Below are positions 1,272 through 39,657 of a DNA stretch of 39,835 bases, piece after piece. The stretch is taken from contig PWQX01000267.1 in the NCBI GenBank assembly GCA_003556605.1, positions 1 to 39,835 of the forward strand, read 5' to 3'. The DNA comes from Spirochaetaceae bacterium (GTDB lineage: Bacteria; Spirochaetota; Spirochaetia; DSM-27196; SLAA01). Both the position numbers and the translations under genes were made by a program. The notes under the pieces were generated by a model, which was not told where the DNA came from, ran no database searches, and saw only the letters and a program-made list of their open reading frames with translations. Each line of letters opens with the position of its first letter. Position 1 is the first letter of the stretch.

Positions 1272-4200
1272 GTGAGGCTTGTGCACACGCTATGGTACAC
1301 CGTCTTAACGCGGCCGCGGGCAATCTTGGCAACGACCGCAGGTCTGTTGCTGTTCGGCGGGTTCTCGGCCGCTCGCCTGCCGGTTGAGTATCTGCCTCGC
1401 ATTGAAGTCCCGGCGGTGCGAATCGTGACCGAGCACGCGGGCATCGGCGCGGCAGAAGTGGAACAACTGCTTACGACCCCGGTTGAGAACGCGCTCGCAT
1501 CGGTTTCCGGCGTAAACCGAATAGAGTCGGTGAGCATGCACGGCACGTCGCTCGTAACGGTTCGATTCAGCTGGGGTGCAAACATAAACCGTGCGGTTGT
1601 TGAGGTTCGTGAGCAGCTCGATGCAGTCCTGCCGCTTCTCCCGCGAGGCGCGCGCTCACCCCTGGTGTTTCGAGACGATCTCTCGCTGCGCCCGGTAGCG
1701 GTGCTCGCAGCGGTCCCAAACGAGAGCTCCGACCATACCCCCGACACCGCGCTGATAGAAACCACCCGCGCAGTTGAACACGACCTCGCTGCAGAGATCC
1801 GCCGGCTGCCGGGCATCGGACGGGTCGATGTACACGGGGCGGTTCGCCCGGAGCTCAGAGTGTCCGTAGACCCCGAATCCGCCGCCGCCGCCGGGCTCGG
1901 AATGCCGCGGATCGCCACCGCGATCGCCGAGGCGGTCGTCGATCTCCCGGTCGGTTGGCTGCGCAACGGCGACAAGGAGTATCCTCTGCGCGTGCAAAGC
2001 GGCGTGAACTCGGCCGCAGACCTACAGGCGCTTCGAATCGAGGGAACCCGCTTGGGTGCTATCGCCAGCGTCGAAGCCGGGGTTGAGGACCGCACCACAT
2101 TCTTTCGTTCAGCCACCGCCGACGCAGTCGGCCTGGTGGTCTATCCGCGCCCTGAGCTCGGCGCGCTCGCCGCGGCAGCATCACTCCGGGAAGAGCTTCC
2201 GCGGCTCGCAGACGAGTTTCACCACACCTTTGCACTTGAGCTCGTTGAGGACAACGCGGAGCCGGTGCGCCGAGCGCTCCGCGATCTGTTCGTTGCGCTG
2301 GCGGTAGGCATCGGCGCCGCAGCCGGCGTGTTGTTCGGCCTGCAGCGGTCGCCCGCACCGGCGCTTGTGTGCGCCGCGGTGATCCCCGTTACGCTCTGCC
2401 TGACCGCCGGCGTGCTGTTTCTCGCAGGCGTCACCCTGAATCTTGTATCGCTTGCCGGGGTTGCAATTGGAATCGGCATGGTGCTCGACAACGCTATAGT
2501 CGTCGTTGATAGACTGCAGTCTGGTCAAACACCGCAAATAGGAGCTTCGGTACAAGCGCTCAGCGAATGTGCGGTTTCCACCTTCGGGGGCACCGCCACC
2601 ACCATCTTGGTGTTCTTTCCGATCGCGTTGGTACCGGGGCCGGTCGGCGCGGTGTTCGGCGAGCTCGCGCTTACCGTATCGATCCTGCTCGCGTTGTCGT
2701 ACGTTGTGTCGCTGACCTTCGTTCCCGCGGCACTAGTGTCTGCACGCGAGCTAACGCAGCGTAGAACACAGGCCGCTCGGCTCACACCGCGCTGGGTGAA
2801 TTTCGAGCAGCGCTATCGCTGCGTTCTGCACACCGTGATCAGGCGCCGGCGTATTGCTCCCGCGGTTATGCTGCTCATCGCCGGCGGGGCAGCCTTCCTT
2901 CTCGGCACGCGCGAACAAACGCTATTCGCGCGCGCGGGTGAGCATGACTACCTCCTCGAGCTGCAGTTCCCCCGCGATCTACACCTCTCGGCGATGCGCG
3001 AGCACGCCGCCGACGCGGCGCGCGAGATAGCCTCGTTAACGGGTGTGACGGTGCGGCACCTCTCGGCAGGTGTAGACCGCCCGCGAGTGACCGACCGCCT
3101 CTCCGCAGGCGGGCGTGACCGCCTGGTAACTATGGCGCTCACGGTCACGCCCACCGGATCCGCCCGGCTGGGCGGCAACGTGCGCGCGGGGCTGCGCCAC
3201 GTTCCATTTCGCAACTACCGCTTGGCACCGGCTGAGAATCCGATCGAGACGCTGCTCGGCGGCCGGAGCGCCAATACACTGCTCGTGCGGGCCGAAAACC
3301 GGGCGGCCCTGCAAACCGCGGTCTCCACGCTTGCATCAGCGCTCGGTGAGCTGAGCGCAACGGACGCGGCCGCAGCGGGCCTGCACCCCCTCACCGAGCC
3401 CGCATACGCGCTGGTCCCTGATTTCGCCGCCCTCCAGCGCGCGGGCGCTGCACCGCGCACCCTGCTTACAACGCTGCGCCACGCGGTACGCGGCGCGGTT
3501 GTGGCGCACCTGCAGGACCGCGGCGGCGAGCTGCCGATTCGGGTAACGCTACCCGAAGCACTGCGCACACCGGACGAAGCGCTTCGCACGCTCCGTGTGC
3601 AGGCCGCGGACGAGCGCCTGGTGCCGCTGCGCGCAGTTGCACAACTGCACCGCCGGCGTTCGCCGGTCGCACTCCAGCGCGTGGACCGGCGGCCTGCACA
3701 AACGCTGACAGTAGAGGCCGCGTCGCAACCCGCGGCCGGGAATACGGAGGCCTGGAACGCTATAGACCGGCTGAGGCTCGACAGCGCACAGGTGGAACCA
3801 ACTGAGCGTGGCGCGCTTCGCGAAACCAAGCGCGAGATGATCTGGGTGTTCTCACTCGCGTTGATGCTCCTGTACATGCTGCTCGCGGCGCAACTCGATT
3901 CGTTCCTGCTGCCGCTTTTGGTGCTCGCGGTGGTACCCTGCTACGCGTTCGGGGGGCTGGCGGCGCTGGCGGCAACATCAACGCCGCTCAGCATCAGCAG
4001 CCTCCTCGGCCTGCTCGTGTTGTTGGGCACAGCGGTAAACGGCGCGATTTTGTTGAGCGTCGGGTACCGGCGCGGGCAGTCACACCGCGTGAACGAAACA
4101 GTCTACGCCTCCGTTGTAGACGAGAGCGCGCGCCGGTCGCGTCCGGCGTTTGCGGCCTTCGCGACTACGGTGACGGCGCTCGCACCGCTCACGCTCGGGC

Positions 4201-4334
4201 CGTTCGCCGCTAACGTCTTAATCCGCGACACCACGGTGCCGCTTGTTGGGGGCTTGGTCATCGGCACCGAGGCGACGCTGCTTCTGTTTCCGTCGCTCTA
4301 TCTGCTGTTCTTCCCCGGGACGCCCGCACCGTGA
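1272..4334 (+). CDS. RND superfamily (HAE1-like) efflux permease
   Basis: 1020 aa with AcrB-like layout: N-terminal TM, LPVEYLPRIEVPAVRI, VEQLLTTPVENALASVSGV, TM4 GIGMVLDNAIVVVDR, TM10 LLGTAVNGAILLS. Confidence 0.9.
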   Translation: MRLVHTLWYTVLTRPRAILATTAGLLLFGGFSAARLPVEYLPRIEVPAVRIVTEHAGIGAAEVEQLLTTPVENALASVSGVNRIESVSMHGTSLVTVRFSWGANINRAVVEVREQLDAVLPLLPRGARSPLVFRDDLSLRPVAVLAAVPNESSDHTPDTALIETTRAVEHDLAAEIRRLPGIGRVDVHGAVRPELRVSVDPESAAAAGLGMPRIATAIAEAVVDLPVGWLRNGDKEYPLRVQSGVNSAADLQALRIEGTRLGAIASVEAGVEDRTTFFRSATADAVGLVVYPRPELGALAAAASLREELPRLADEFHHTFALELVEDNAEPVRRALRDLFVALAVGIGAAAGVLFGLQRSPAPALVCAAVIPVTLCLTAGVLFLAGVTLNLVSLAGVAIGIGMVLDNAIVVVDRLQSGQTPQIGASVQALSECAVSTFGGTATTILVFFPIALVPGPVGAVFGELALTVSILLALSYVVSLTFVPAALVSARELTQRRTQAARLTPRWVNFEQRYRCVLHTVIRRRRIAPAVMLLIAGGAAFLLGTREQTLFARAGEHDYLLELQFPRDLHLSAMREHAADAAREIASLTGVTVRHLSAGVDRPRVTDRLSAGGRDRLVTMALTVTPTGSARLGGNVRAGLRHVPFRNYRLAPAENPIETLLGGRSANTLLVRAENRAALQTAVSTLASALGELSATDAAAAGLHPLTEPAYALVPDFAALQRAGAAPRTLLTTLRHAVRGAVVAHLQDRGGELPIRVTLPEALRTPDEALRTLRVQAADERLVPLRAVAQLHRRRSPVALQRVDRRPAQTLTVEAASQPAAGNTEAWNAIDRLRLDSAQVEPTERGALRETKREMIWVFSLALMLLYMLLAAQLDSFLLPLLVLAVVPCYAFGGLAALAATSTPLSISSLLGLLVLLGTAVNGAILLSVGYRRGQSHRVNETVYASVVDESARRSRPAFAAFATTVTALAPLTLGPFAANVLIRDTTVPLVGGLVIGTEATLLLFPSLYLLFFPGTPAP

Positions 4335-7060
4335 ATCACGAACAACTTTCCCCTATGCCCCCTGCCCCGGCCGCCCTGCCGGTGGTACTGACTCCCGGCC
4401 GGCGTGCTCTGCTCATCGCGGCACTCACGCTTGTTTGCGCGGCGATGATCGCACAAGCTCAGCTCGGAGAACCGCGCCGGGCGACCGAGCCCGTCCTGGC
4501 GGTGCGGGTCCAGTACGACGGGGGCCTCGCCGAGGTGGTTGAGCGCAGGATAACGCGGCCCTTGGAAGACGCCGTCGCTTCGGTACCGCACCTGGTGCAC
4601 CTGCGATCGGTAAGCTCCCGTGACGAAGCGGAGCTCGTGCTGCATTTTCACAGCGCCACCGACTTGGACGCGGCCTACCTGGAACTGCGCGCAGCGGTTG
4701 CACGCGTGGCGCCGGGCTTACCGGAGTCCGCACGGCCGCCTCGCATACTTCGCTCCGACCGCAGCAGCCCGGTTGCAATGATCATAGCCTTACCGGGTGG
4801 GGGAACGAGTGATCCCGAACAGCTGCGCAACACCCTTGCACAGGTGGATGGTGTTGCCGAGGTAATCATCGCCGGCAGACGAGCCCGCGAGGCAGCAGTA
4901 CAGGTTGCGCCCGACCGCGCGGCAGCGGCCGCCGTATCAATGCTCGACATCATCACAGGCTTGCGCGGGCACGCGGTAGTCGGCGGGTTCGCTCGACCCG
5001 GCACCCCCTCAGCAACACTGGACACTCGCATCAAGACCATCGAGCAACTGCCTGCAATCTTCATCCGCCCTTCGCTGCGGTTAGGGGATATCGCGGCAAC
5101 ACTCGAGCGTTCACCTCCGGCCGAGTACGTTTCACGATTGAACGGCAGCGAACGGGTGCTGCTGTACTTACAGCCGCAAGGCGATGTCAATTCGGTAACC
5201 GTATCTCGGCGTTTGCGGCGCGTACTACAACGCTATCCCGAGACGGAAATCGTGGTTGACCGGGGAAAAGAAATCGTGAGTGAGATTACACGCTCGGCGG
5301 TCCGGCTCGCCGCCGGCTTGGCGCTCGCCGCCGCAGCGCTCGGCGCACTCGCACGTTCCGGCATCGCTGCACTGCTGTGTCTCTTCGGCGCGTTGGGTGC
5401 CGCAGCCGGTGGCGTCGCGGGTTTGGCGGCGGCCGGCCTGCCTCTGGAGCTTCTCGGGCTCACCGGCGTCGCTGCCGCCTCGTGGGTGACGATAGCATTG
5501 GTGGCGGCGAGACTCCGGCGCGCGGATAACGCCGCACTGGGTATCCTTGTGATGCTCGCGGCGCTCGCGGCGCCAACAGCGTTTCTTGCAGCCCCACTGC
5601 GGTTCACGCTCCAGCCGCTGATCGTCGCCAACGCAGCGGGGCTGCTCGTTGGATACGCGTATGTGCGCGTCTGTCTGCCCGGGCGGGCCGGAGCAGGCCT
5701 CCCGGCGCGCGGACGAGATACCGTCTCGCGACCGGGATTCACCCTGATCGCGCTTTGGGTGTTCGCGGCCGCTTCGGCAGGAGCCCACGGTCTCGGCTCA
5801 CCTTTTCAAAAGGCGAACCACGACAGTTTCAGCGTCCTGCTGGAGTTCCCGGCCGGTGCCACGCTCCAGTCAGTTGAGCGTAAAAGCCGGCGCGTTGAAG
5901 AGGCCCTGCTGCGCCACGTCGCCGTAACGACCGTCGCTTCGCGCTACGAACGTGAACGCGCACGGTTTGATCTGACAGCCGCTGCCGGCCACGATTCTTC
6001 CGCTCTTCTTGCCGACCTTCGTGCGATGCGCACTATAGTACCGGGGGCATACCTCGTGATACCTGAGCACTCGCGTGCCGATTTACACGCGACTGTAACG
6101 ATCACCGGTGACTCACACGCCGGGTTGCGCGAGCGCGCCGAGATGTTCGCGCAAACGCTGCGGCTGCGCAGCGAAGTGGCCGAGGTTGTCTTCGCATTCA
6201 AGCAGCCGCCGGCCTCGTACATCTTTCGCCTCGACCAAGACCGCCTTGCGCATTTCGACGTTTCACCGGCCACGCTCACCCGCAATATCGCGTGGAGCCT
6301 TGGCGAGCGCGTCGCGGCAAAATGGTACACTGCCGATGACGAGCGCGATGTGCGCGTGTTCGCCGCAGGCGGTGCTGATCTCAACGCGCGGGCGTTTCTC
6401 CAGGCACCGGCCCCGGCCGTGCTCGCGAACGGCGCGCGCTACCGCGACCTCGGCGCCGCGGCAGCCGGTTTTGAGGTTAGTCGACTCTACCGGTACGACC
6501 GCCGGCCGGGGGTTCAACTCACTGCGTTCTTCAACCACACCCGCGCTGCGCGCCCGCACAATAAGCTCGCCGAGCCCGCAGGCCTCGCAGACCTCGCAGC
6601 GCTCGCCGCCGAGGCCGGCAGACTAACCGGCTATCGCCATGTGGTCGCAGAGCCACACCTCGGACCGGACGGCGGCACGGCGACCCCCATGGTGCTCGCG
6701 CTGTTCTTCGCCTTACCCTGCCTTATTATCCTTGCTAAGGCCCGCTCGGCCGGAGAGGCTCTGAGAACGGTGGGGCTTGCGGCCTCCGCCGTCGCCGGCG
6801 GCGTCCTCGCAGTCCAGCTCACCGGCAGCTCCTCTTGGGTTGCGGCAGCTTTGGGACTCGCAAGCGCGATCGCTGTTCTGGCAAACAGTCGTCTCTCCGC
6901 ATCCGAATACTTCGTATTGGCGCTTGCTATACTACCGTGCGCGCTGCCTCCCAGCACCGCAGGTCCGCTAGCTCCGTATGCGCTTGCCGTCCTCGCCGCC
7001 CTTGCCGCGGCCCAAGTAACAGCAGCGTCCACGTTGGGGGGGTCCCAAGGCCCGGCTTGA
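4331..7060 (+). CDS. Divergent RND superfamily permease-like protein, possible non-relay partner subunit
   Basis: GTGA overlap with the upstream RND gene. Porter-like segments (VRVQYDGGLAEVVERRITRPLEDAVASVPHLVHLRSVSS; SVLLEFPAGATLQSVERKSRRVEEALL). The TM4 region LLGLTGVAAASWVTIALVAARLRR lacks the usual VD(D/N) motif. Confidence 0.75.
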   Translation: MNHEQLSPMPPAPAALPVVLTPGRRALLIAALTLVCAAMIAQAQLGEPRRATEPVLAVRVQYDGGLAEVVERRITRPLEDAVASVPHLVHLRSVSSRDEAELVLHFHSATDLDAAYLELRAAVARVAPGLPESARPPRILRSDRSSPVAMIIALPGGGTSDPEQLRNTLAQVDGVAEVIIAGRRAREAAVQVAPDRAAAAAVSMLDIITGLRGHAVVGGFARPGTPSATLDTRIKTIEQLPAIFIRPSLRLGDIAATLERSPPAEYVSRLNGSERVLLYLQPQGDVNSVTVSRRLRRVLQRYPETEIVVDRGKEIVSEITRSAVRLAAGLALAAAALGALARSGIAALLCLFGALGAAAGGVAGLAAAGLPLELLGLTGVAAASWVTIALVAARLRRADNAALGILVMLAALAAPTAFLAAPLRFTLQPLIVANAAGLLVGYAYVRVCLPGRAGAGLPARGRDTVSRPGFTLIALWVFAAASAGAHGLGSPFQKANHDSFSVLLEFPAGATLQSVERKSRRVEEALLRHVAVTTVASRYERERARFDLTAAAGHDSSALLADLRAMRTIVPGAYLVIPEHSRADLHATVTITGDSHAGLRERAEMFAQTLRLRSEVAEVVFAFKQPPASYIFRLDQDRLAHFDVSPATLTRNIAWSLGERVAAKWYTADDERDVRVFAAGGADLNARAFLQAPAPAVLANGARYRDLGAAAAGFEVSRLYRYDRRPGVQLTAFFNHTRAARPHNKLAEPAGLADLAALAAEAGRLTGYRHVVAEPHLGPDGGTATPMVLALFFALPCLIILAKARSAGEALRTVGLAASAVAGGVLAVQLTGSSSWVAAALGLASAIAVLANSRLSASEYFVLALAILPCALPPSTAGPLAPYALAVLAALAAAQVTAASTLGGSQGPA

Positions 7061-18294: not shown

Positions 18295-21200
18295 CTACGA
18301 GCAGCCGGTCGTTGACCCGCAGGTCATGCACTTCATGCACGCGCCGTTGCGGATCAAGGTGAAATGCCCACAAGTCGGGCACGGGTCGCCTTCGTAGCCC
18401 TTCATGCGCGCCTTGCGCGCCTCTTCGGTGGACAGCGGATCTCTTGTTGCACGCCCGGCCGTGCCGGCTTTCGGTGTCTCCCGCGGCCCCCCGGCCGGTT
18501 GTGTCACAAAGCCGATTGAGCCGCTCTGTGATCCGCCCTCGCCGCTTGCCTCACGCCCCCATTCACCGGATGCCGCATCGTGGCTTTCGCCGGTTCGCCG
18601 GCGGGAGTGCGCGCTCGGCGCGTCGCTCCGCTCACCATAATGCCCCGTATCGGTGGGCCGCAGATCATCGGGAGAGACCTGTACCAGGTCTGTACGGCCG
18701 AGGTATGTGAATGCAAGATCGCGGAAAATGAAGTCCAGAACCGAGGTGCTCATCTTGATGTTTGCGTGTCCGCGCACGATACCGTTCGGCTCAAAACGCG
18801 AAAAGGTGAACGCGTCAACGTACTCCTCCAGCGGCACTCCGTACTGCAGGCCTAGCGAGACCGCAATCGCAAAACTGTTCATGAGCGATCGAAATGCCGC
18901 CCCTTCTTTGTGCATGTCGAGGAATACCTCACCGAGACGCCCGTCGCTGTACTCGCCGGTGCGCAGGAACAGACTGTGCCCGCCGATCTTGGCCTTCTGC
19001 GTGTAGCCGACGCGGCGCGTCGGCAACGGGCAGCGCTTGGAGACCTGCGGCTGCCGCTCGCCGTGCGCACCGGCGGTCGGCTGCGATTCGGGCGGCTGCG
19101 CTGCAGGCTCGCGACTGCCGGAGGCCCGGATCTCCGCCGTCTCACCGGACCGTACTGCTGCGGAGCGCAGAGCGTCTAAGCGCAGCTCACCGTTGCGCCG
19201 GCGTTGCTCCGCGCTCATAATGGCGGCGGCAACCGGGTCGGAACCGCCGGCGAACGTAGACAGCGGCTGGCTGAGCTTCGACCCGTCGCGATACAGCGCA
19301 ATTGCCTTGAGCATGCGATGCCATGCCAACATATAGGCTCCCTTCACATCTTGCACCGTTGCACTGTTCGGCATGTTGATCGTCTTCGAGATCGCCCCCG
19401 ATACGAACGGCTGACCCGCAGCCATCATCTCTACGTGCGCGTGCCACGGGATTGAGCGAACCGCGGTGCGTCCCGAAGGGTTCGCGGTGTCGAAAACCGG
19501 AAGGTGCTCGTCTTTGAGGTACGGCGCGCCTTCCACACCCATCTGTCCGCAGGCGTACACCTCGGCCTGCTCGATCTGCGCATCGCTAAACCCCAGGTGC
19601 CGCAGCAGGCTGAACCCGGACAGCGAATAGGTTGCCTCCGGCACCCCGATGGTGTTTTCCAGGAACTCTTTGTCGAACAACCATGGACCGAACGCGTCGT
19701 GCAGCGAGAATGCGCCTTTCAGCGCGGCGCGTACCTTCTGCAGTTGCGCGTCGCCGAAGCCTTTTTGCCGCAGTGCAGCCTCGTCGATAGCCGGCGCACC
19801 CTCGAGACTGCCGTGCCCAACGCAGTATGCGATGATTTCGTCGATTTCTTGGCTGCTGTATCCGAGCTTCTTAAGCGCCGGGGGAATAGATTGGTTGATG
19901 ATCTTGAAAAACCCGCCCCCGGCGAGCTTTTTGAACTTCACAAGGCTGAAATCAGGTTCTATGCCGGTGGTGTCACAATCCATCACCAGGCCGATGGTAC
20001 CAGTGGGCGCGATTGCAGTGGTCTGCGCGTTCCGAAACCCGTGCTTCTGCCCCTGTTCGAGCGCAGCGTCCCAGCTCTCGCGTGCGGCGGCGAGCAGTGG
20101 CTCGGGACAGTGATCGGGATCGATAGGCTGCGGCGTTACGGTGAGGTTCTCGTACTCCGCAGCCGGCGAGGCGTAGGCGGCACGGCGATGATTGCGGATC
20201 ACGCGCAGCATGTTCTCTTTATTCGCTTCAAAACGCGGAAACGGGCCTACGCCGGCTGCGATTTCGGCCGACATCGCATAACTCTCACCGCTGAGAACGG
20301 CTGTCAACGCAGCGGTGATTGCGCGCCCTTCCGGCGAATCGTACGGAATTCCCATTACCATCAGCAGCGTGCCGACGTTAGCGTACCCGAGCCCCAAGGT
20401 GCGGAAGTCATAGCTCTTGCGGGCCACCGCTTTGCTCGGAAACTGGGCCATTACCACGCTGATCTCGAGGATCAGCGTCCAGATACGAATCGCGTGACGG
20501 TAGGACTCGATATCGAAAGCTGCGCTCTCTGGGTCGTAGAAACGCATCACGTTCAGCGAGGCGAGGTTACATGCAGTGTCGTCGAGAAACATGTACTCCG
20601 AACACGGATTCGAGGCGCGAATGTCGCCGTCGGCCGGGCACGTGTGCCACTCGTTTATGGTTGAGTGAAACTGCACACCGGGGTCGGCGCAGCTCCAGGC
20701 CGCCCGCGTAATCTGCTCCCACAGAGCACGCGCCTTGATCTTCTTCCAGAAACTGCCGTCGGTGCGGGCGGTGAGCTCCCATTCACCGTCGTCGAGCACT
20801 GCCTGCATAAACTCAGACGTCAAGCGTATTGAGTTATTGGACGACTGCCCGCTCACGGTGTTGTACGCTTCGTCGTCCCACTGGGCGGTAAACCTCTTGA
20901 GCTCGGCCGGAACTTCACCCTGGCGGGCGAGCTGCAGGAGCTGATACAAGAACGGTGCCGGGATCTCGGCCGCAACCGCCTCTTCTATCGCGGCACGCAG
21001 CATGCTGTTCTGGTCGGGGTTCATACGGTCCTGATCCGGGCCGTTATACTGCTCAATTGCGGCAAGGATCCGCCCGGCCTCGCGGTTGATCGCGGCGCTG
21101 CCGGCGGCCATCGCCGCTACCTTGTACTCCTCGTCGGCCTTCCAGTTGACGTACTTCTCGATATCGGGATGGTCGGCGTCGAGCGTTACCATCTTGGCCG

Positions 21201-21945
21201 CGCGGCGCGTGGTGCCTCCGCTCTTGATTCCGGCCGCCGACCGGTCGGCAATCTTGAGAAACGACAGCAAGCCGCTGGACACGCCGCCGCCTGACAGCGG
21301 TTCGTTGGCGCCGCGAATGCGTGAGAAATTGCTTCCGGTACCCGAACCGTACTTGAACAAGCGCGCTTCGCGCGAAACGAGGTCGATGATTCCGCCTTCG
21401 TTTACCAGGTCATCCTGCACGTCGAGTATGAAACACGCATGCGGTTGCGGCCGCCGATAGGCGCTGCCGGACTTCTCCACTTCACCGGTTTCGGGATTCA
21501 CGAAGTAGTGGCCCTGCGGCGGCCCTTCAATACCGTAAGCCGCATACAGCCCCGTATTGAACCACTGCGGGGAGTTCGGCGCCGCCATCTGGTGGGCCAG
21601 CATATAAACCGTTTCGTCGTAAAACGCCTGCGCGTCTTCTTGAGCATCGAAGTAACCCGCCGCCTTACCCCACTCGGTCCAGGTATGCGCCAAACGATGA
21701 AACACCTGGCGCGCATCGTGCTCGCCACCGGTGCTGCCGTCTTGGCGGGGAACTCCGGCTTTGCGGAAGTACTTCTGCGCAAGGATATCAGTTGCAATCT
21801 GCGACCACGACTCGGGTACGATGACGTTATCTTGGCGGAACACCAGGGTTCCGTCGGGGTTGCGCAGCTCGCTGGCGCGAGAAACCCAGCTAATATCGGC
21901 GTATGGATCCTGCCCTTTGGTAGTGAAGTGTCGGGTAACGTGCAT
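18295..21945 (-). CDS. nrdJ: Adenosylcobalamin-dependent (class II) ribonucleotide reductase
   Basis: 1216 aa; [101 protein letters not shown]-terminal zinc-like [28 protein letters not shown]. Confidence 0.95.
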
Positions 21946-31475: not shown

Positions 31476-32426
31476 ATGAATGGCACAACAGTTGTCGTAA
31501 CTGATTATCCTTGGGCGGACCTCCAAACCGAGAGACAGGCACTGGAAGAGGTTGGCGCTGCTGTGGTACCGGTGGCAGCCGAGGCAGATCTTGAAGGTCT
31601 CCTGGCGGACGCTGATGCGGTGTTGAACGGCTTCAAACCAATCACGGCACGTCTCATTGCCCGCATGCAGAACTGTCGCATCATCGCCCGTTGGGGGATA
31701 GGGGTGGACAACGTTGATGTAGCCGCTGCCACCGGCGCCGGTATTCAGGTGACCAACGTCCCCGATTACTGTATCGAGGAGGTGAGCACCCACGTCATTG
31801 CGTTGATCTTAGCTGCGAGCCGCAAGCTCTTCAGCGTACACCAACAGGTCTGCACGGGCAGCTGGGGATTCGCCGGTATTCGGCCTATCCACCGTCTACA
31901 AGGACAGGTGCTCGGCGTCGTCGGTTACGGACGCATTGGACGGGCCGTAGCGGCCAAGGCGGCCGCACTGGGGTTGGATGTGCTCTGTTTCGACGTCTGC
32001 GCACAGCAAGACGCGGCTGCCCGCCAGGTTGACCTCGAAACGCTTTTGAGTGATTCAGACTACGTTTCTCTGCACCTACCGTTATCCGAGGATACCCGGC
32101 ACTTTCTAAACGCGGAGGCGTTATCGCTGATGAAGCCGGATGCATTCTTGATTAACACCGCCCGAGGCGAGGTGCTTGACGTTGAGGCGCTCACAGCGGC
32201 GCTCAAAGAGCGACGCATCCAGGGTGCGCTCTTGGACGTGCTTGCCGAGGAGCCGCCTCGCAAGAATCATCCTGTAAGAGAGTCCGGGGCGATTCTGACC
32301 GGACACACGGCGTGGTATTCAGAGGAGGCACTGGTGGAACTACGACTCAAAGCAGTGCGGCAGGTGGTACTCGCCCTTTCGGGGAAGCCGGTAGAATCCC
32401 CTGTCAACCGCCTCGCCGACAGTTGA
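31476..32426 (+). CDS. D-isomer-specific 2-hydroxyacid dehydrogenase
   Basis: GIGVDNVDVAAATGAGIQVTNVP, LGVVGYGRIGRAVAAKAAALG (NAD Rossmann), VSLHLPLSEDTRHFLN, FLINTARGEVLDVEAL, TGHTAWYSEEA. Confidence 0.92.
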   Translation: MNGTTVVVTDYPWADLQTERQALEEVGAAVVPVAAEADLEGLLADADAVLNGFKPITARLIARMQNCRIIARWGIGVDNVDVAAATGAGIQVTNVPDYCIEEVSTHVIALILAASRKLFSVHQQVCTGSWGFAGIRPIHRLQGQVLGVVGYGRIGRAVAAKAAALGLDVLCFDVCAQQDAAARQVDLETLLSDSDYVSLHLPLSEDTRHFLNAEALSLMKPDAFLINTARGEVLDVEALTAALKERRIQGALLDVLAEEPPRKNHPVRESGAILTGHTAWYSEEALVELRLKAVRQVVLALSGKPVESPVNRLADS

Positions 32427-32528
32427 GCCCCCGGTCTCAAGCTGCCGCAGCGGGCATAACTCTGGTGGACAAGAGCGCAGCTTGACGCTGATTCCGGAGA
32501 ACTCCTCGAGCGATTAGGACCGGCGGCA

Positions 32529-32552
32529 GAAAAATCATGAGAAAAATCATGG
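32529..32552 (+). repeat. Two tandem copies of a 12-nt unit (GAAAAATCATG[A/G])
   Basis: gaaaaatcatga gaaaaatcatgg, just upstream of the larA-like GTG start (32569). Confidence 0.6.
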
Positions 32553-32568
32553 GTCGTGAGGTGATACA

Positions 32569-33843
32569 GTGACGCAACGATCAGTGCGATATGGGTCTGA
32601 AACTCTGGAGTTCGAGCTTCCGAGCGGCCGCTTGATTGACGAAGTCGGTGCCGCCCGCACCGAAGCGGTATCCGATCCTTCGAGTGTAATCTCCCGAGCG
32701 TTGCAGGCACCGTATGGTTCGAGCCCACTGCGCGAAGCTGTCAAGGGCAGCGGTTCGGTTACTGTTCTCGTTGATGACAACACGCGCCCCACGCCGGTGC
32801 ACTTGATTGCGCCACATATCGTTGAGCATCTGGAGCACGGGGGAATCGGGCGAACGGACATACGATTTCTCATTGCGGCCGGCACTCATCGTGCAATGAC
32901 CAACCGTGAACTCGAGCATAAGCTCGGCAGTGAGATCGCGAGCAAGTATCAGGTTTACAATCACCACTACGAGAACCCGGACGCTCTGTGCCGCATGGGA
33001 ACAACGCCGAGCGGTGTCCCTATTACCGCTAACCGAATCGCCCGAGACGCCGACTTTCTAATCGGGGTAGGCAATATTGTACCCCACCGCTACTGCGGCT
33101 GGTCCGGCGGGGCAAAAATCATCCAACCGGGAATCGGCGGTGAAGCGACCACCGCCGAAACACATCTGATGATAACGCGGTTCCCCGACGTCCGGTTAGG
33201 CGTGGTTGAGAACAAAGTCCGTGAGGAAATGGAGTCTGTGGCCGAGCGCGTGGGTTTGAAGTTTATCGTCAATACAGTGCTGACTCACGATCAGAGGCTA
33301 TATGACGTTGTGGCTGGAGACTTTCGACAAGCGTTTCGAGAGGGAGTCCGGCGGGCCGAATCGGTCTATTCCTGTCCGATTACGCAACGGGCGGATGTAG
33401 TGATCGCGAGTTCATTCCCGAGCGATCTGAACCTGTGGCAGGCGGCAAAAGCGCTGTACTCAGCCGAGCTCATGGTCCAGCCGGAAGGCATAATCATTCT
33501 GGTTTCGCCCTGCTATGAAGGCGTAGGTGAACACGATGAGTTCTGCCGCTTACTTGCCCTCGACTATCAGACCGTCGATGCGATGATAACGAACGGCGAG
33601 GTGCGTGATAGAGTCGGGGCCGCAGCGGTCTTGGCGGTCGCACTAGTTCGCAAACATGCGACGGTGTATCTCGTCTCAGAAGGAATTGTGGAGAGTGAAG
33701 CAGAGACCATGGGGATCGAGGTGTTCGGCAATCTACAGCACGCAATTGACAAGGCGCTTCGGGTCAAGGGACCGGGGAGTACCGTTTCAATTGCGCACGA
33801 GGCAACCGAGATTCTCCCGCGCTTGGCTGACTACCGCGCTTAA
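32569..33843 (+). CDS. LarA-family nickel-dependent 2-hydroxyacid racemase/epimerase
   Basis: VLVDDNTRPTP, FLIAAGTHRAMTNRELEHKLG, IGVGNIVPHRYCGWSGGAKIIQPGIGG, matching the catalytic His and pincer-binding His/Lys regions of LarA. Confidence 0.88.
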   Translation: MTQRSVRYGSETLEFELPSGRLIDEVGAARTEAVSDPSSVISRALQAPYGSSPLREAVKGSGSVTVLVDDNTRPTPVHLIAPHIVEHLEHGGIGRTDIRFLIAAGTHRAMTNRELEHKLGSEIASKYQVYNHHYENPDALCRMGTTPSGVPITANRIARDADFLIGVGNIVPHRYCGWSGGAKIIQPGIGGEATTAETHLMITRFPDVRLGVVENKVREEMESVAERVGLKFIVNTVLTHDQRLYDVVAGDFRQAFREGVRRAESVYSCPITQRADVVIASSFPSDLNLWQAAKALYSAELMVQPEGIIILVSPCYEGVGEHDEFCRLLALDYQTVDAMITNGEVRDRVGAAAVLAVALVRKHATVYLVSEGIVESEAETMGIEVFGNLQHAIDKALRVKGPGSTVSIAHEATEILPRLADYRA

Positions 33844-33971
33844 CTGACTGCCTATAAGCGCGTTATTTCCCGCGCGTCGCATGACCTCGAGTGCTGTCGT
33901 CTTTCGTTACAAGCACCGCGGCATGTCTTGTTTGCTGAAGCCGGTAGCCACGCCAAAGCTACGTTGGCATG

Positions 33972-34808
33972 CTACATCCACTGCCACGAGGATTTCTCTT
34001 CGTTCCTCGTAATGAACTGCCGAAGATATCGAATAGACGAACCAACCACATACTCGTTAGTTCCATCGGGAAACACCTCTACGCTCAATGGCCCATCGTA
34101 ATCTATGTCCTTCAATAGTGCAAAGTATCGATCGAAGGCGACACTGCCTTTACCTATCGGTCGGTGCGCAGTATCGGCAAGATGCACAACGGCAATCGAA
34201 GATGAGTTCATCCTGATCGCGCTTTCTTCCTCAAGCGCTGTGTGATCGGTATCCAGCATCAAAGCAGTCGAGGACAGCTGACTTCGGTCTATGAAGTCCA
34301 CCGTTTCGTCGATCGAGTTCAACGTATCACAGACGTGCGCACGAAGGGGCTCAAGCAGCACCATGACACCTCGCGGTTCTGCAATACTGTCCAGAAATGA
34401 TAATCCTTCGGCCATTCGTTCCATTGAATTACTGCGACCGTCCTCCCAGACCTTCCCCCGGAATCTCCCGATGTTCATTGGACATTCCAAAACCTCTGCC
34501 AGTTTCACGGTGCGCTCGCCCCACTCCCGTGCCCTACGCCGAAGCTCAGGGTCAATATGGTTCAAACACAGATCGTAGCTGCCGAAGTACTCTCCTGTAC
34601 ACAATTGCACCACATTCACGCTCTTCTTTCGAATACACGAGGACACATCTTTCAGGTCAAAGCGAAAGGGGTTGCCGATCATAATCTCTATTGAATCAAA
34701 CCCATGTTCGAGCAATAGATCAACCACGGACGGGAACGCGCCACGTATGCCGGTAACGGTCCGATCGGTCGGAATGGTACCATCAACCCACATGAAAGCG
34801 AGGTCCAC
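33972..34808 (-). CDS. Sugar phosphate isomerase/epimerase-like TIM-barrel protein (AP endonuclease 2 superfamily)
   Basis: Candidate metal ligands in VLLEPLRAHVCDT, LMLDTDHTALEE, VVHLADTAHRP, LSVEVFPDG. Confidence 0.78.
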   Translation of the reverse strand: MDLAFMWVDGTIPTDRTVTGIRGAFPSVVDLLLEHGFDSIEIMIGNPFRFDLKDVSSCIRKKSVNVVQLCTGEYFGSYDLCLNHIDPELRRRAREWGERTVKLAEVLECPMNIGRFRGKVWEDGRSNSMERMAEGLSFLDSIAEPRGVMVLLEPLRAHVCDTLNSIDETVDFIDRSQLSSTALMLDTDHTALEEESAIRMNSSSIAVVHLADTAHRPIGKGSVAFDRYFALLKDIDYDGPLSVEVFPDGTNEYVVGSSIRYLRQFITRNEEKSSWQWM

Positions 34809-34938
34809 TACCCACCACCTTCAATAACAAGCGTCTTGTCACACATTGAGACACGCTCCAATCTTTGTGGTATCGGCGGAGCGCAAAACGGAACACCCCC
34901 AGTGATCCATGACGTCCAAAGCAAGGACCTCGGCCGGA

Positions 34939-35658
34939 TCACTTCTCCGTCGCGAAATAGAGCTCCCGCATCTCTTCATCTTCTTTGATCAGGTCGACTG
35001 GGCCGTCCAAAGTGATTTCCCCTTGCGACAAGACATAGACGCGGTCGCTGAGCTGAAGTGACAATCGTGCGTTTTGTTCAACGATCAGGAGCGTCAGTCC
35101 CTTCGACTCCATAATATCCCGTAGCGTCGTGAAGATACGCATAACGATTACCGGAGCCAGCCCCATAGACGGTTCGTCGATCATTATGAGCTCGCAATCC
35201 GAGACCAGCGCACGGCCGATTGCGAGCATCTGCTGCTCTCCTCCACTCAAGGAGCCTGCGATTTGCTTCTTTCGCGTTGCCAGCTCGGTGAACAACTCAT
35301 AGACCTCGGCCGTCTTCGTCTTCCGCTTGCCGGCATCGATACGTACACCGGCTACCTCGAGATTCTCGTCCACCGAAAGATCGGGGAAGATCTGGCGCCC
35401 TTCCGGAACGTGTGCAATGCCCTGCCGCGCGATCTTGTACGGTTCAACTCCTATCAACGAGCGCCCGTGGAAAGACACCACCCCTCCTGGCTCAGGTTTT
35501 ACGAGACCCGAGATAACCCGCAAGAGAGTGCTCTTCCCTGCGCCGTTCGGCCCTAACACCGAGACTACTTCTCCGCTATCCACATGCAGATTGACTGCAC
35601 GCAACGCATGAATGCCGCCATAAGTTGCGGAGATATTCTCAATCGAAAGCAGTTTCAT
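34939..35658 (-). CDS. livF: Branched-chain amino acid-type ABC transporter ATPase (LivF family)
   Basis: GPNGAGKSTLLRVISGL, VPEGRQIFPDLSVDENL, LSGGEQQMLAIGRAL, IMIDEPSMGLAPVI, VEQNARLSLQLSDRVYVL. ATGA overlap with livG. Confidence 0.93.
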   Translation of the reverse strand: MKLLSIENISATYGGIHALRAVNLHVDSGEVVSVLGPNGAGKSTLLRVISGLVKPEPGGVVSFHGRSLIGVEPYKIARQGIAHVPEGRQIFPDLSVDENLEVAGVRIDAGKRKTKTAEVYELFTELATRKKQIAGSLSGGEQQMLAIGRALVSDCELIMIDEPSMGLAPVIVMRIFTTLRDIMESKGLTLLIVEQNARLSLQLSDRVYVLSQGEITLDGPVDLIKEDEEMRELYFATEK

Positions 35659-36428
35659 AGTGTCTCGTCTCCACCCAGGTAGGCCTTTATCACATTCTCG
35701 TCCTGCTCCACATCGCCAAAGACCCCTTGCGAGATAACCTCGCCGAAGTTGAGTACGTAAACCCAATCCACCACTCTGCGGATGAACTCCATGGTGTGCT
35801 CCACTAACAACATCGTGATGCCTTGCTCCTTAAGGCGCTCCATTATGCGCACTATGTCGGCGTATTCCTCTTTGGCCATCCCGGCCGCAGGCTCGTCTAA
35901 GAGCAGAAGCTCCGGTTCCAGGGCAAGGGCTCTCGCGATTTCGAGTGCACGCCGCTTGCCGTACGGAAGCGCGGTCGGCAGTTTGCCGGCCTCCGACTCT
36001 ATCCCCAACCGCTGCAGCAGCGTCATTGCATGCTCCAGTTGCTCGCGCTCCTCGCGGCGGTTGCGCCGGGTATTAAGAACGATGTCCAGAACGTTTGCGG
36101 AGAAGAAATGCCGTCTCGCGACCAATACGTTCTCAACCACGGTAAGACGGTGAAAGAGCCGGATTCGCTGAAAGGTCCTTCCGATACCGGAACGGGCAAT
36201 CTTGTTCGCACTGTACCCGGTGATGTCTTCTCCCTTGAAAAACGTTCTACCGGAAGTTGCCGGCAGCTCGCCTGAAACCTGATTGATCAAGGTAGTCTTA
36301 CCGGACCCATTGGGCCCGATAAGTCCGGTTGTCGTTCCCTTATTGACGGTGAGATTGATGTTCTTATTGGCGATAATTCCGCCGAACTGTTTTGTTAAGC
36401 CCTTCGTTTCAAGTAAGACTTGCATCAT
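35655..36428 (-). CDS. livG: Branched-chain amino acid-type ABC transporter ATPase (LivG family)
   Basis: GPNGSGKTTLINQVSGE, GIGRTFQRIRLFHRLTVVENVLVA, LPYGKRRALEIARAL, LLLLDEPAAGM, VEHTMEFIRRVVDWVYVLNFGEVI. Confidence 0.93.
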   Translation of the reverse strand: MMQVLLETKGLTKQFGGIIANKNINLTVNKGTTTGLIGPNGSGKTTLINQVSGELPATSGRTFFKGEDITGYSANKIARSGIGRTFQRIRLFHRLTVVENVLVARRHFFSANVLDIVLNTRRNRREEREQLEHAMTLLQRLGIESEAGKLPTALPYGKRRALEIARALALEPELLLLDEPAAGMAKEEYADIVRIMERLKEQGITMLLVEHTMEFIRRVVDWVYVLNFGEVISQGVFGDVEQDENVIKAYLGGDETL

Positions 36429-37440
36429 CAGCACCTGCTTCCGAGTCATCAACTACTGTCGCATCTTTCAGGGTCTTGGTGGCCCCCTCGACCTTCCAGA
36501 GTCGATCTAAGGCCTTCGAGGCCAAATCACCCAGTCCACGGGGAAGAAACACCACGAACAGGATCGTAATCGTTGACGCTAACAGAAGGTAGTAGTTCTC
36601 CCAGCCCGCATAAGGAAGCCTCAGCGTTTCGGGAAGAAGTGTCAGGCCGATTCCGCCGATCACGCCGCCCCAGAGGTGCCGCAACCCGCCCACAACCGCC
36701 ATTCCGACGAACCTGGACGACTCGAAGAACACAAACGGCTCCGGCGTCAAGAAGCCCGCAAAGTGCGCGTAAAGCGCCCCGGCGAGACCTGCCAACGCCC
36801 CGGAAAACGCGAACGCAAACACCTTCGCCTTTCGCGCGCTGATACCGCATGACTCGGCCGCCGTTTCGTCATCGTTGATCGCGAACATCGCCCGGCCCAA
36901 ATACGAACGCTTAATGTGATACATCGAGACAACCGTCGCGGCGAGAATGCCCAGGAACAGATAGTAATGCATATTGCTCGTGAACATCGATCCCGCCCAA
37001 CGCATGGGCGGTATCCCGAAAAAGCCGTTCGTTCCTCCGGTCAGAGGCTGTAGATTTACGATCAGTCGATGCACAATCAAGCCGAACGCTATGGTAACAA
37101 GCGATAAGAAAAACGCCTTGAGGTTGAACGACGGAACACTCACCACCAATCCTGCTACAACGCTGAAGATTACGCCGACGATTATCGACAGCGGAATAGG
37201 AACCCCGTAACTCGTCGAGAGAATTGCAGAGGTGTAGGCCCCGATAGCATAGAATCCGGCCTGACCAAGCGAGATCTGACCGGCGAAGCCGGTCAGAAAT
37301 ACCAAGCCCGAGGCGAGAATCGCGTGGATTAAGCCGCGATTCATGACGAACAATCGATACTCGTTTTCCTCCATCAGCGGGTAGTAGAGCACGGCCCCCA
37401 AGAACACAAGTATCATTACAAGTTTCAGTCGTTTTCGCAC
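36409..37440 (-). CDS. livM: Branched-chain amino acid-type ABC transporter permease (LivM family)
   Basis: HAILASGLVFLTGFAGQISLGQAGFYAIGAYTSAIL, FSGALAGLAGALYAHFAGFLTPEPF, GGLRHLWGGVIGG. GTG start at 37440 after GGGAAGG. Confidence 0.92.
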   Translation of the reverse strand: MRKRLKLVMILVFLGAVLYYPLMEENEYRLFVMNRGLIHAILASGLVFLTGFAGQISLGQAGFYAIGAYTSAILSTSYGVPIPLSIIVGVIFSVVAGLVVSVPSFNLKAFFLSLVTIAFGLIVHRLIVNLQPLTGGTNGFFGIPPMRWAGSMFTSNMHYYLFLGILAATVVSMYHIKRSYLGRAMFAINDDETAAESCGISARKAKVFAFAFSGALAGLAGALYAHFAGFLTPEPFVFFESSRFVGMAVVGGLRHLWGGVIGGIGLTLLPETLRLPYAGWENYYLLLASTITILFVVFLPRGLGDLASKALDRLWKVEGATKTLKDATVVDDSEAGADDASLT

Positions 37441-37453
37441 GCCTTCCCAGCTC

Positions 37454-38350
37454 CTATTCCTTTTTGGATGTCCAGTTGAAGATTCCGGTGGGTTTCCACA
37501 CCAGGACGACGGCAATAACCGCGAACGAAATGACGTCACGATAGGCGGATGAGATGAAGAGCGTAGAGAAGTTCTCCAACGCTCCCAACACAACACCGCC
37601 GAGAATTGCTCCATACGGGTCTACTAGTCCGCCCATAACCGCCGCAGCGAAGCCTTTGATGCCGATTGCACCGCCGCCGAGCACCGGTGATACGAAGTAA
37701 ATCGGCCCCAGCAGTAAGCCTGCGACACCCACCACCGTGGTCGACATGACGAACGCCAGGTTCGCCGTCAGGTTTACGTTGATGCCCATCAGTTGCGCAG
37801 TCTCTTTGCTCTGAGCGGTTGCGCGCAGCATTTTGCCCATTAACGTCTTACGAAGGATGACGTGCAGCAACGTCATCAAGACCGCAACCACCACAATCAT
37901 ATAGAAGTAGATGGCGCGAACACCAACCCCGAAAAAGCGTACGAACTGGGTTGCATCCCCGAATAGCGGGGGAAACCGCCGGGGCATGCCGCCGAACATC
38001 GCGATTATGAGAGTAAGCCAAAACACCGTTAGCATCAGCGTTGCGACGACAAACTCCAACCGTGCTCCGCCGCGTTTGGTTATCGGTTCATACAACAGAT
38101 ACCGCAGGCCCAGACCGTACACCGCCACCAGAACAATTGCGAGCACCGCGGACAGCAGCATCGAAAGACCGAGCCAAGTGTGAAACAGGAAGAACAAATA
38201 GACACTCAACATCGCTGAGCTGATGTTGGCAAAGTTGATTCGGTTTATGCTCTGCCAAAGGAATACGACGCCCAGACCCATAAGGCCGTACGTGAGTCCG
38301 ACCGAGACCCCGGCAACCAGATTCTGAATGAAATCAGTCAGTCCAAGCAT
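37454..38350 (-). CDS. livH: Branched-chain amino acid-type ABC transporter permease (LivH family)
   Basis: NLVAGVSVGLTYGLMGLGVVFLWQSINRINFA, RATAQSKETAQLMGINVN, GIKGFAAAVMGGLVDPYGAILGGVVLG. Confidence 0.92.
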   Translation of the reverse strand: MLGLTDFIQNLVAGVSVGLTYGLMGLGVVFLWQSINRINFANISSAMLSVYLFFLFHTWLGLSMLLSAVLAIVLVAVYGLGLRYLLYEPITKRGGARLEFVVATLMLTVFWLTLIIAMFGGMPRRFPPLFGDATQFVRFFGVGVRAIYFYMIVVVAVLMTLLHVILRKTLMGKMLRATAQSKETAQLMGINVNLTANLAFVMSTTVVGVAGLLLGPIYFVSPVLGGGAIGIKGFAAAVMGGLVDPYGAILGGVVLGALENFSTLFISSAYRDVISFAVIAVVLVWKPTGIFNWTSKKE

Positions 38351-38435
38351 CGTGGGTATTCCTTCTGCTGAGGTATTCGCTTATTTGTCGTACCGACCGA
38401 ATCTCGGTCGCGCACATACGAGGTCTGCAAGAGCC

Positions 38436-38464
38436 CCGCCACTGCCCAATAAGGCCAGTGGCGG
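38436..38464 (-). other. 9-bp perfect hairpin in the livK-livH intergenic gap
   Basis: ccgccactg-cccaataaggc-cagtggcgg; no T-tract follows on the transcribed strand. Confidence 0.65.
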
Positions 38465-38499
38465 TTGCTCGCGCCGCACAAACAGCATCTATCGCAATT

Positions 38500-39657
38500 C
38501 TACCGCAGGATATCGATGATTGCCCAGTCCTCGCCGTCGAACTGCGAGATGTAGCTGATATCCGTGAAGTTGTGATGCTCGTCGGCTTTCATTCTGCCTT
38601 GAACGCCGTAGTACTCCATCTCCCGGAGCGTCTGGGCCAGAGCTTCACCGTCGGTTGTCCCGGCCTGTTCAATTGCCTTAGCCAACATGTGGATACCGTC
38701 GTAGTAGCACTGCGCCGGATCACTTGGTCTGTCGGTGTATTGCGCTGCATGGTTCTCGACGAATCTGCGAACCTCTGGCGTGTCGTCGTTCGGATTGAAG
38801 CCTTGGACCGAGTATACCCCGGTTGCGGCGTCGCCTGCAAGGTTGGTAAAAGCCGGTACACCCCACGCGGAGAAACCGATGATGGGAATATCGAACTCCA
38901 GCTCCCGCATCTGACTGACGACAACTGCCGCCTCAGGCTCGTGCGTCAACCCGATCAGACCGTCGACTCCGGCCCTCCTGAGGCTGAGAATCTGTCCGGT
39001 CGCATCGGCATCACCTTCGGTGATCTGTTCGGCCGCAACGATTTCTACTCCGAACTCCTCGAACGCTGCCTCGGCAACAGCCAAGGACGCCGTACAGTAG
39101 TCGGTTGAACCGTAGATTACTCCCGGCCTCGTAATACCCAGCTCCTCGATGGCGTACTTCACCTGCAGATAGACCTTGACGCCGTCGTCGGCGCGCAAGC
39201 GAAACAGGTACGGGTTTCCGACCTCGGTGTAGCGGAACGATGGAGACGTTGCGCCGACCAGCATCGGGGTCTTCGCCTGCTCCGCGATTCGGTGCACACC
39301 CAGCACCGCGCTGCTCATATTCGGCCCGAATACCGCGACAACGCGGTCTTCATTGATCGCCCGCCGCAATACCGTAGCCGCCACGCTCGCGTCGGCTTGG
39401 GTGTCATAGATTCGCAAATCCAGATCACGTCCGTCTATGCCGCCCGCCTCGTTGATCTCCTGAACCGCCATCCACGCGCCGCGCTGAATGTACTCACCCA
39501 GGATCGAACCGAGTCCGGTGAACGGCGACAGCAATGCAATCCGAATGATGTCCGGCTCTTCAGGCTCAGCCTCTCGTCCCCCTGCTGCCGGGAGGATCAT
39601 TCCGACTAGTGCAATCAACACCAGCAGTATCACACCCCGTTTAGCCAATCTTTTCAC
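38500..39657 (-). CDS. livK: ABC transporter substrate-binding protein, LivK/HAAT type
   Basis: Signal-like N-terminus, IRIALLSPFTGLGSILGEYIQRGAWMAVQEINEAGGIDGRDLDLRIYDTQADASVAATVLRRAI, FGPNMSSAVLGVHRIAEQAKTPML. GTG start preceded by GAGGAGG. Confidence 0.93.
   Translation of the reverse strand: MKRLAKRGVILLVLIALVGMILPAAGGREAEPEEPDIIRIALLSPFTGLGSILGEYIQRGAWMAVQEINEAGGIDGRDLDLRIYDTQADASVAATVLRRAINEDRVVAVFGPNMSSAVLGVHRIAEQAKTPMLVGATSPSFRYTEVGNPYLFRLRADDGVKVYLQVKYAIEELGITRPGVIYGSTDYCTASLAVAEAAFEEFGVEIVAAEQITEGDADATGQILSLRRAGVDGLIGLTHEPEAAVVVSQMRELEFDIPIIGFSAWGVPAFTNLAGDAATGVYSVQGFNPNDDTPEVRRFVENHAAQYTDRPSDPAQCYYDGIHMLAKAIEQAGTTDGEALAQTLREMEYYGVQGRMKADEHHNFTDISYISQFDGEDWAIIDILR

Follow-up and report, generated by a model that had tools for sequence, protein, structure and literature searches.

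The window analyzed here is a contig of 39,835 nucleotides (PWQX01000267.1, assembly GCA_003556605.1) from a Spirochaetaceae bacterium. It contains an eight-gene locus that combines a LarA-family racemase/epimerase and a D-2-hydroxyacid dehydrogenase with a Liv-type ABC transporter and a TIM-barrel protein related to sugar epimerases. Our analysis indicates that the locus is probably a module for the uptake of a hydroxy acid and its epimerization at C2. This LarA and the transporter are encoded together in two phyla, the LarA has an unusual pocket, and the ammonium-binding residue of the binding protein LivK is replaced.

LarA and Liv genes are linked across phyla

All eight genes are open in the open reading frame (ORF) listing, and the domains expected for them are secure in Pfam and NCBIfam searches. 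The dehydrogenase and LarA genes are on the plus strand and the other six are on the minus strand, converging at 33843/33972. The minus-strand order is livK-H-M-G-F, with the TIM-barrel gene last, and the ORFs and domains bear out the convergent layout given in a preliminary description of this DNA. The binding protein, two permeases and two ATPases in one operon place the transporter in the HAAT family.

Scanning genomes with the LarA protein, we found the whole eight-gene arrangement conserved, at 60-79% identity, in a Spirochaetaceae metagenome-assembled genome (L046). The same-genus genome G003 (locus L053) shows identical identities. The two are probably one assembly and were counted once. 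LarA and LivKHMGF, in rearranged order, are found in eight Bacillota-side genomes. Five Bacillota contigs have Liv genes (46-57% identity) that precede LarA and share its strand. One short contig, L047, contains only LivF and part of LivG. Wider searches covered 393 genomes of the spirochaete phylum and 299 relatives of the Bacillota genome G063. They yielded three further Bacillota-type loci (L103-L105) of similar content.

The LarAs concerned share the invariant motif PHRYCGW and are called RY type here. Liv genes adjoin all ten RY-type loci that were read, and a complete Liv set is present in one of 25 loci with other LarAs (L111, in which it is divergent). A Fisher test of 10/10 against 1/24 gave p of about 8e-8, which overstates independence because related loci and some short contigs are included. 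The link is supported by three deep lineages, and the ten RY LarAs form one clade with a Shimodaira-Hasegawa-like approximate likelihood ratio of 99. Across pairs of loci, the identity of LarA and that of LivK correlate with r = 0.95, as expected if the two travel together; shared ancestry alone could also give this value. The linkage is beyond chance because the eight genes recur in G003/L046, and LarA with LivKHMGF recurs in eight further genomes. This is the co-occurrence in relatives to which the preliminary description had looked for support.

Two loci outside the RY type resemble this arrangement. L111 (2269-13102) contains the divergent Liv operon, a UxaA-like protein, a LarA with an I,Y pocket, a 2-hydroxyacid dehydrogenase (45% identity to that in the window) and an HMGL protein. 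Its LivK has R at the position of Glu226, which suggests that it may bind another acidic ligand. Near its LarA, L120 encodes a dehydrogenase and two LivK-like proteins.

The RY-type LarA has an intact active site and a distinct pocket

The window LarA contains both domains of the superfamily, Lar_N (189.7 bits, cut-off 23.3) and LarA_C (47.6 bits, cut-off 25). In LarA, R75, K184 and H200 bind the nickel-pincer nucleotide (NPN), and D72, H108, H174 and K298 are catalytic (PMC7583248). Residues were compared with LarA of L. plantarum and Mar2 as references. D70, R73, H107, H173, K183, H199, Q291 and K294 in the window LarA are equivalent to D72, R75, H108, H174, K184, H200, Q295 and K298 in LarA. 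All RY LarAs, in both phyla, retain the full set of NPN-binding and catalytic residues.

The specificity positions F175, F176, V297, W358 and T359 are R, Y, A/G, A and A/G in the ten RY LarAs (R174, Y175, A293, A352 and A353 in the window). In published patterns (PMC11770544), lactate goes with F,F,W,E/Q, malate with H/Q-K, 2-hydroxyglutarate with Y,F,H/Q,T, gluconate with E,V,A,H, and hydrophobic acids with F/Y at W358. The RY pocket fits none of the patterns published for LAR, MAR, HGR, GntE and HHR, in line with the earlier suggestion that this LarA may have an unassigned substrate. The protein also scores below every NCBIfam equivalog cut-off. Its top model is LarAH6 (NF052593, malate racemase), with 336.5 of 500 bits, and its best sequence match in the PDB is Mar2, which falls outside the RY clade. 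An AlphaFold2 model, with a predicted local distance difference test (pLDDT) score of 86.7, matches the fold of 9eid with a template modeling score of 0.92.

Judged by these comparisons, the RY-type LarA is a distinct subfamily that fits no characterized group compared. It shares the fold, the two domains, all NPN ligands and both catalytic histidines with LarA, the LarAH5/6 malate racemases and LarAH10. Unlike them, it has the RY pocket, forms a separate clade and is encoded without LarBCE.

The LivK pocket has lost the ammonium ligand

Ligand binding in the LIV-binding protein relies on Ser79 and Thr102 for the carboxylate and on Glu226 for the ammonium group (PMC13103812). The window transporter resembles E. 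coli LivKHMGF in its five components, their order and this carboxylate clamp. In a comparison with E. coli LivK and LivJ, Ser79 (S115) and the GAT motif (T137) are kept. The transporter differs from its E. coli equivalent in being linked to larA and in several pocket residues of LivK. Glu226 is replaced by S263, Tyr202 by H239, Trp/Tyr18 by L and Leu77 by N, and P is found at position 276. The nine RY-linked LivKs all have these replacements, position 226 being S or T, and a profile alignment puts the same residues together.

Position 226 is acidic in five amino-acid-type proteins, E in the leucine-binding protein (LBP), LIVBP and the Leu-bound 4n0q, and D in 4gnr and 3td9. The sequence of 4nqr/4nv3 has Asp at exactly this position, with 4nv3 titled as the N280D mutant. 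Asn is found there in 4q6w, titled as a 3-hydroxybenzoate complex, and in 4obb from Anabaena variabilis, titled as a complex with a 3-methyl-2-oxo acid. Like the RY-linked LivKs, 4obb belongs to the HAAT family and has a neutral residue at 226; it differs in having Asn instead of Ser/Thr, at about 21% identity. The AlphaFold2 model of the window LivK (pLDDT 85.2) matches the folds of 3td9 and 4gnr.

These residues suggest that the ligand of LivK is a carboxylate without an alpha-ammonium group. An amino-acid ligand is unlikely, and the doubt about one in the preliminary description is strengthened by S or T at 226 in all nine proteins with the clamp kept. LivK and LarA point to one ligand class. 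Because they are genetically linked in one conserved subfamily, identifying what LivK binds should reveal the substrate of this LarA group. Position 226 of LBP, tied to amino-acid versus hydroxy- or oxo-acid ligands, could help to re-annotate other ‘branched-chain amino acid’ transporters.

Known NPN synthesis genes are not detected

The window is part of a draft genome of 3.88 Mb in 296 contigs, estimated to be 99.42% complete and 4.38% contaminated. Neither the window nor this genome contains a match above cut-off to LarB, LarC (two models) or LarE. The preliminary description had correctly stated that the three genes are missing from the window, and had named their absence from the genome beforehand as evidence that would refute its reading. 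That absence is what the search found, so the activity of LarA would depend on a cofactor from another source. A weak LarB-like match was rejected as a divergent LarB; it is PurE (AIRC), encoded beside PurK. Weak LarE-like matches, reaching at most 37 of 150 bits, were rejected as divergent LarE.

LarB, LarC and LarE are all-or-none in a set of 61 genomes related to this one at the level of class or closer. The same 11 genomes have all three and 50 have none, indicating that the searches are sensitive. Matches of more than 100 bits to the window LarA are present in 26 of these 50. LarAs aligned from LarBCE-less genomes keep the NPN residues; H174 is changed in L019. An assembly gap was rejected as a general cause because the genes are all-or-none, and because 12 of the LarBCE-less genomes whose LarA matches exceed 100 bits reach a completeness of 90% or more and a contamination of 5% or less. 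LarC is present in one of the ten RY-LarA genomes (G591) and undetected in nine, the Bacillota genomes having been searched for LarC only. G536:C1, a contig of 2.88 Mb that is apparently a near-complete Bacillota-side genome, has two LarA matches and was negative in the LarC search.

The genome of the window encodes four LarA-class proteins, three of them with all cofactor residues intact. One (L060, contig C43, near 3415-4527) scores 467.6 bits, over the lactate-racemase equivalog cut-off of 460, and has the pocket F,F,V,W,Q. Its neighbors are a sugar-type ABC transporter (SBP_bac_1, two BPD_transp_1), a GATase1-like protein and a URO-D-family protein. Two paralogs (L003 on C179 and L004 on C200) are over the cut-off of LarAH18, ‘putative hexonate epimerase’, and the C200 copy has L in place of the NPN-binding R75. 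Two further Lar_N matches (C31 and C105) are distant and were without LarA motifs by eye; they were left out of the count.

The conserved NPN residues, together with LarC in G591, argue for NPN as the cofactor of the RY subfamily. Salvage or another synthesis route fits the data best, and loss of the cofactor with retention of its pocket fits less well. Most of the genus, the order's other sampled families and some Bacillota may run intact nickel-pincer enzymes without LarBCE, through finished cofactor scavenged from neighbors or an undescribed route, the RY LarA with its re-tooled Liv transporter being one user. We offer this as a tentative generalization, with a chance somewhat below even. 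Among the papers searched, we found none on LarA without LarBCE; those read treat the opposite case, LarBCE without LarA. The pattern raises the question of how the cofactor is supplied where a genome encodes several intact nickel-pincer enzymes but no known pathway for it. We consider the missing genes the most interesting part of this study because the pattern extends across the order.

Proposed function and alternatives

We infer the substrate, the direction, the order of the steps and the non-LarBCE source of NPN from the gene content and residues described above. The Liv transporter, with a LivK that no longer binds an alpha-ammonium group, would import an alpha-hydroxy (or alpha-oxo) carboxylate. 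The RY-type LarA, supplied with NPN from a source other than LarBCE, would invert C2. In the spirochaete version, the D-2-hydroxyacid dehydrogenase and the sugar-epimerase-like TIM barrel would process the products. In the Bacillota version, this role would fall to a second LarA, an IPMS-like HMGL, a UxaA/GarD-like dehydratase, butyrate kinase, phosphotransbutyrylase and often IlvD. The preliminary description had proposed a chain of uptake, epimerization, oxidation dependent on nicotinamide adenine dinucleotide (NAD) and a TIM-barrel step. This chain is plausible, as is the place of the TIM barrel in it. LarA and the transporter are conserved throughout; the dehydrogenase belongs to the spirochaete version only, so the NAD-dependent oxidation is not shared by all loci.

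The extra genes of the Bacillota loci are a second, LarAH10-like LarA, an IPMS/citramalate-synthase-like HMGL, butyrate kinase, a split UxaA/GarD-like dehydratase, a PucR-type regulator and, in some, IlvD, which is over its equivalog cut-off. In L048-L051 and L103-L105 they are part of the conserved cluster M20 peptidase-livKHMGF-(IlvD)-larA-larA2-HMGL-UxaA-butyrate kinase-phosphotransbutyrylase-PucR, with varying gene order. The cluster looks like a hydroxy-acid fermentation pathway, for which we recognized no known counterpart.

The favored substrate is a sugar acid or polar hydroxy-diacid, at about an even chance for the two taken together and with no single compound named. A sugar acid is suggested by the IolO-like TIM barrel in both phyla (in Bacillota, it is near three loci), by DeoR, ribulose-phosphate epimerase and split transketolase genes flanking the G003 locus, and by the GarD/UxaA-like dehydratase in Bacillota. 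The Arg in the LarA loop, with GarD as the best dehydratase match, would suit a polar hydroxy-diacid. IlvD, the IPMS-like HMGL and butyrate kinase/phosphotransbutyrylase would suit a 2,3-dihydroxy branched acid.

Several observations weigh against the proposed uptake and epimerization module, beginning with the undetected cofactor genes. The dehydrogenase is not a member of the Bacillota RY loci, and IlvD with the IPMS-like HMGL there suits a branched or 2,3-dihydroxy acid as readily as a sugar acid. For LivK, gap placement in the T137/GAT region is shifted in one alignment. 3hut, annotated only as a putative branched-chain amino-acid protein, also has Ser at 226, and a neutral residue at this position alone excludes no ligand.

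The window LarA may not use NPN at all, being inactive or dependent on another cofactor in an organism unable to make NPN. LarB, LarC and LarE all below cut-off in a 99.4% complete genome, and LarC undetected in nine of ten RY-LarA genomes, speak for this. It is nevertheless unlikely, given active-site residues intact across two phyla, LarC in the RY genome G591, and a genome that also encodes one LarA over the lactate-racemase cut-off and two over that of LarAH18. NPN could also be what the Liv transporter carries: import of NPN or a precursor in place of LarBCE is consistent with the transporter-LarA linkage and with the same scarcity of LarC. However, G591 has the same Liv-LarA locus plus LarC, and the other LarAs read from LarBCE-less spirochaetes (loci L055, L058 and L065) have no Liv operon nearby. 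We disfavor cofactor import as highly improbable.

Import and racemization of malate or another C4 dicarboxylate would agree with LarAH6 and Mar2 as the top matches, and the Arg in the H174 loop offers a possible contact for a second acid group. We consider it quite unlikely, since the LarAH6 score is far under its cut-off, Mar2 is outside the RY clade, and the H/Q-K pair of malate racemases (PMC11770544) is A-A or A-G in RY LarAs. An ordinary branched-chain amino-acid transporter beside an unrelated larA is very unlikely. LivH, LivM, LivG and LivF are typical of the family, Liv operons are common, and the top fold matches of LivK are leucine-type binding proteins. However, such a transporter would not account for ten of ten linked loci, in rearranged order across phyla, or for the loss of the ammonium ligand in all nine LivKs.

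Other features of the locus and window

The listed ORFs of LivF, LivG and LivM begin too far upstream, and likely starts (about 35658, 36428 and 37440) are used in Table 1.

Table 1. Genes of the LarA-Liv locus, with positions in the window
Gene product	Position	Strand	Remarks
D-2-hydroxyacid dehydrogenase, 316 aa	31476..32426	+	Pfam 2-Hacid_dh_C 2.5e-52
LarA-family racemase/epimerase, 424 aa	32569..33843	+	GTG start; Lar_N 4.6e-56, LarA_C 2.2e-12
TIM-barrel sugar epimerase/isomerase-like protein, 278 aa	33972..34808	-	AP_endonuc_2 1.8e-35
LivF-like ATPase	34939..35658	-	ORF listed to 35766; likely ATG start 35658
LivG-like ATPase	35655..36428	-	ORF listed to 36452; likely ATG start near 36428
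LivM-like permease, 343 aa from GTG	36409..37440	-	BPD_transp_2 1.7e-36; start follows L046 ortholog
LivH-like permease, 298 aa	37454..38350	-	BPD_transp_2 3e-27; 79% identity in L046
LivK-like binding protein, 385 aa	38500..39657	-	Peripla_BP_6 3.1e-66

The dehydrogenase has both the catalytic and NAD-binding 2-Hacid_dh domains and belongs to this family. By inspection, it has the NAD motif GYGRIGR at 150 and putative catalytic residues R230 and H277. It scores below every NCBIfam equivalog cut-off (top model PGDH, 203 of 454 bits). Its PDB relatives are 1wwk, CtBP and glyoxylate reductase, and its L046 ortholog is 65% identical. The TIM barrel has putative metal-site residues E153, D186, H209 and E244, also assigned by inspection, and its PDB relatives are 2zvr/TM_0416 and ketose 3-epimerases. 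It resembles IolO and the ketose 3-epimerases in the barrel and the presence of metal-site residues, and differs from IolO (5-keto-L-gluconate epimerase, NF041099, the top NCBIfam model) in scoring 119 bits against a cut-off of 300.

Promoter and terminator scans gave matches no commoner than in shuffled sequence, and an Rfam search gave no match. The contig, designated C9, ends 178 bases upstream of livK. It is unlikely to be contamination, as the whole locus is present in another species of the genus. Elsewhere in the window, an ordinary Class II B12-dependent ribonucleotide reductase is encoded at 18295-21945 on the minus strand.

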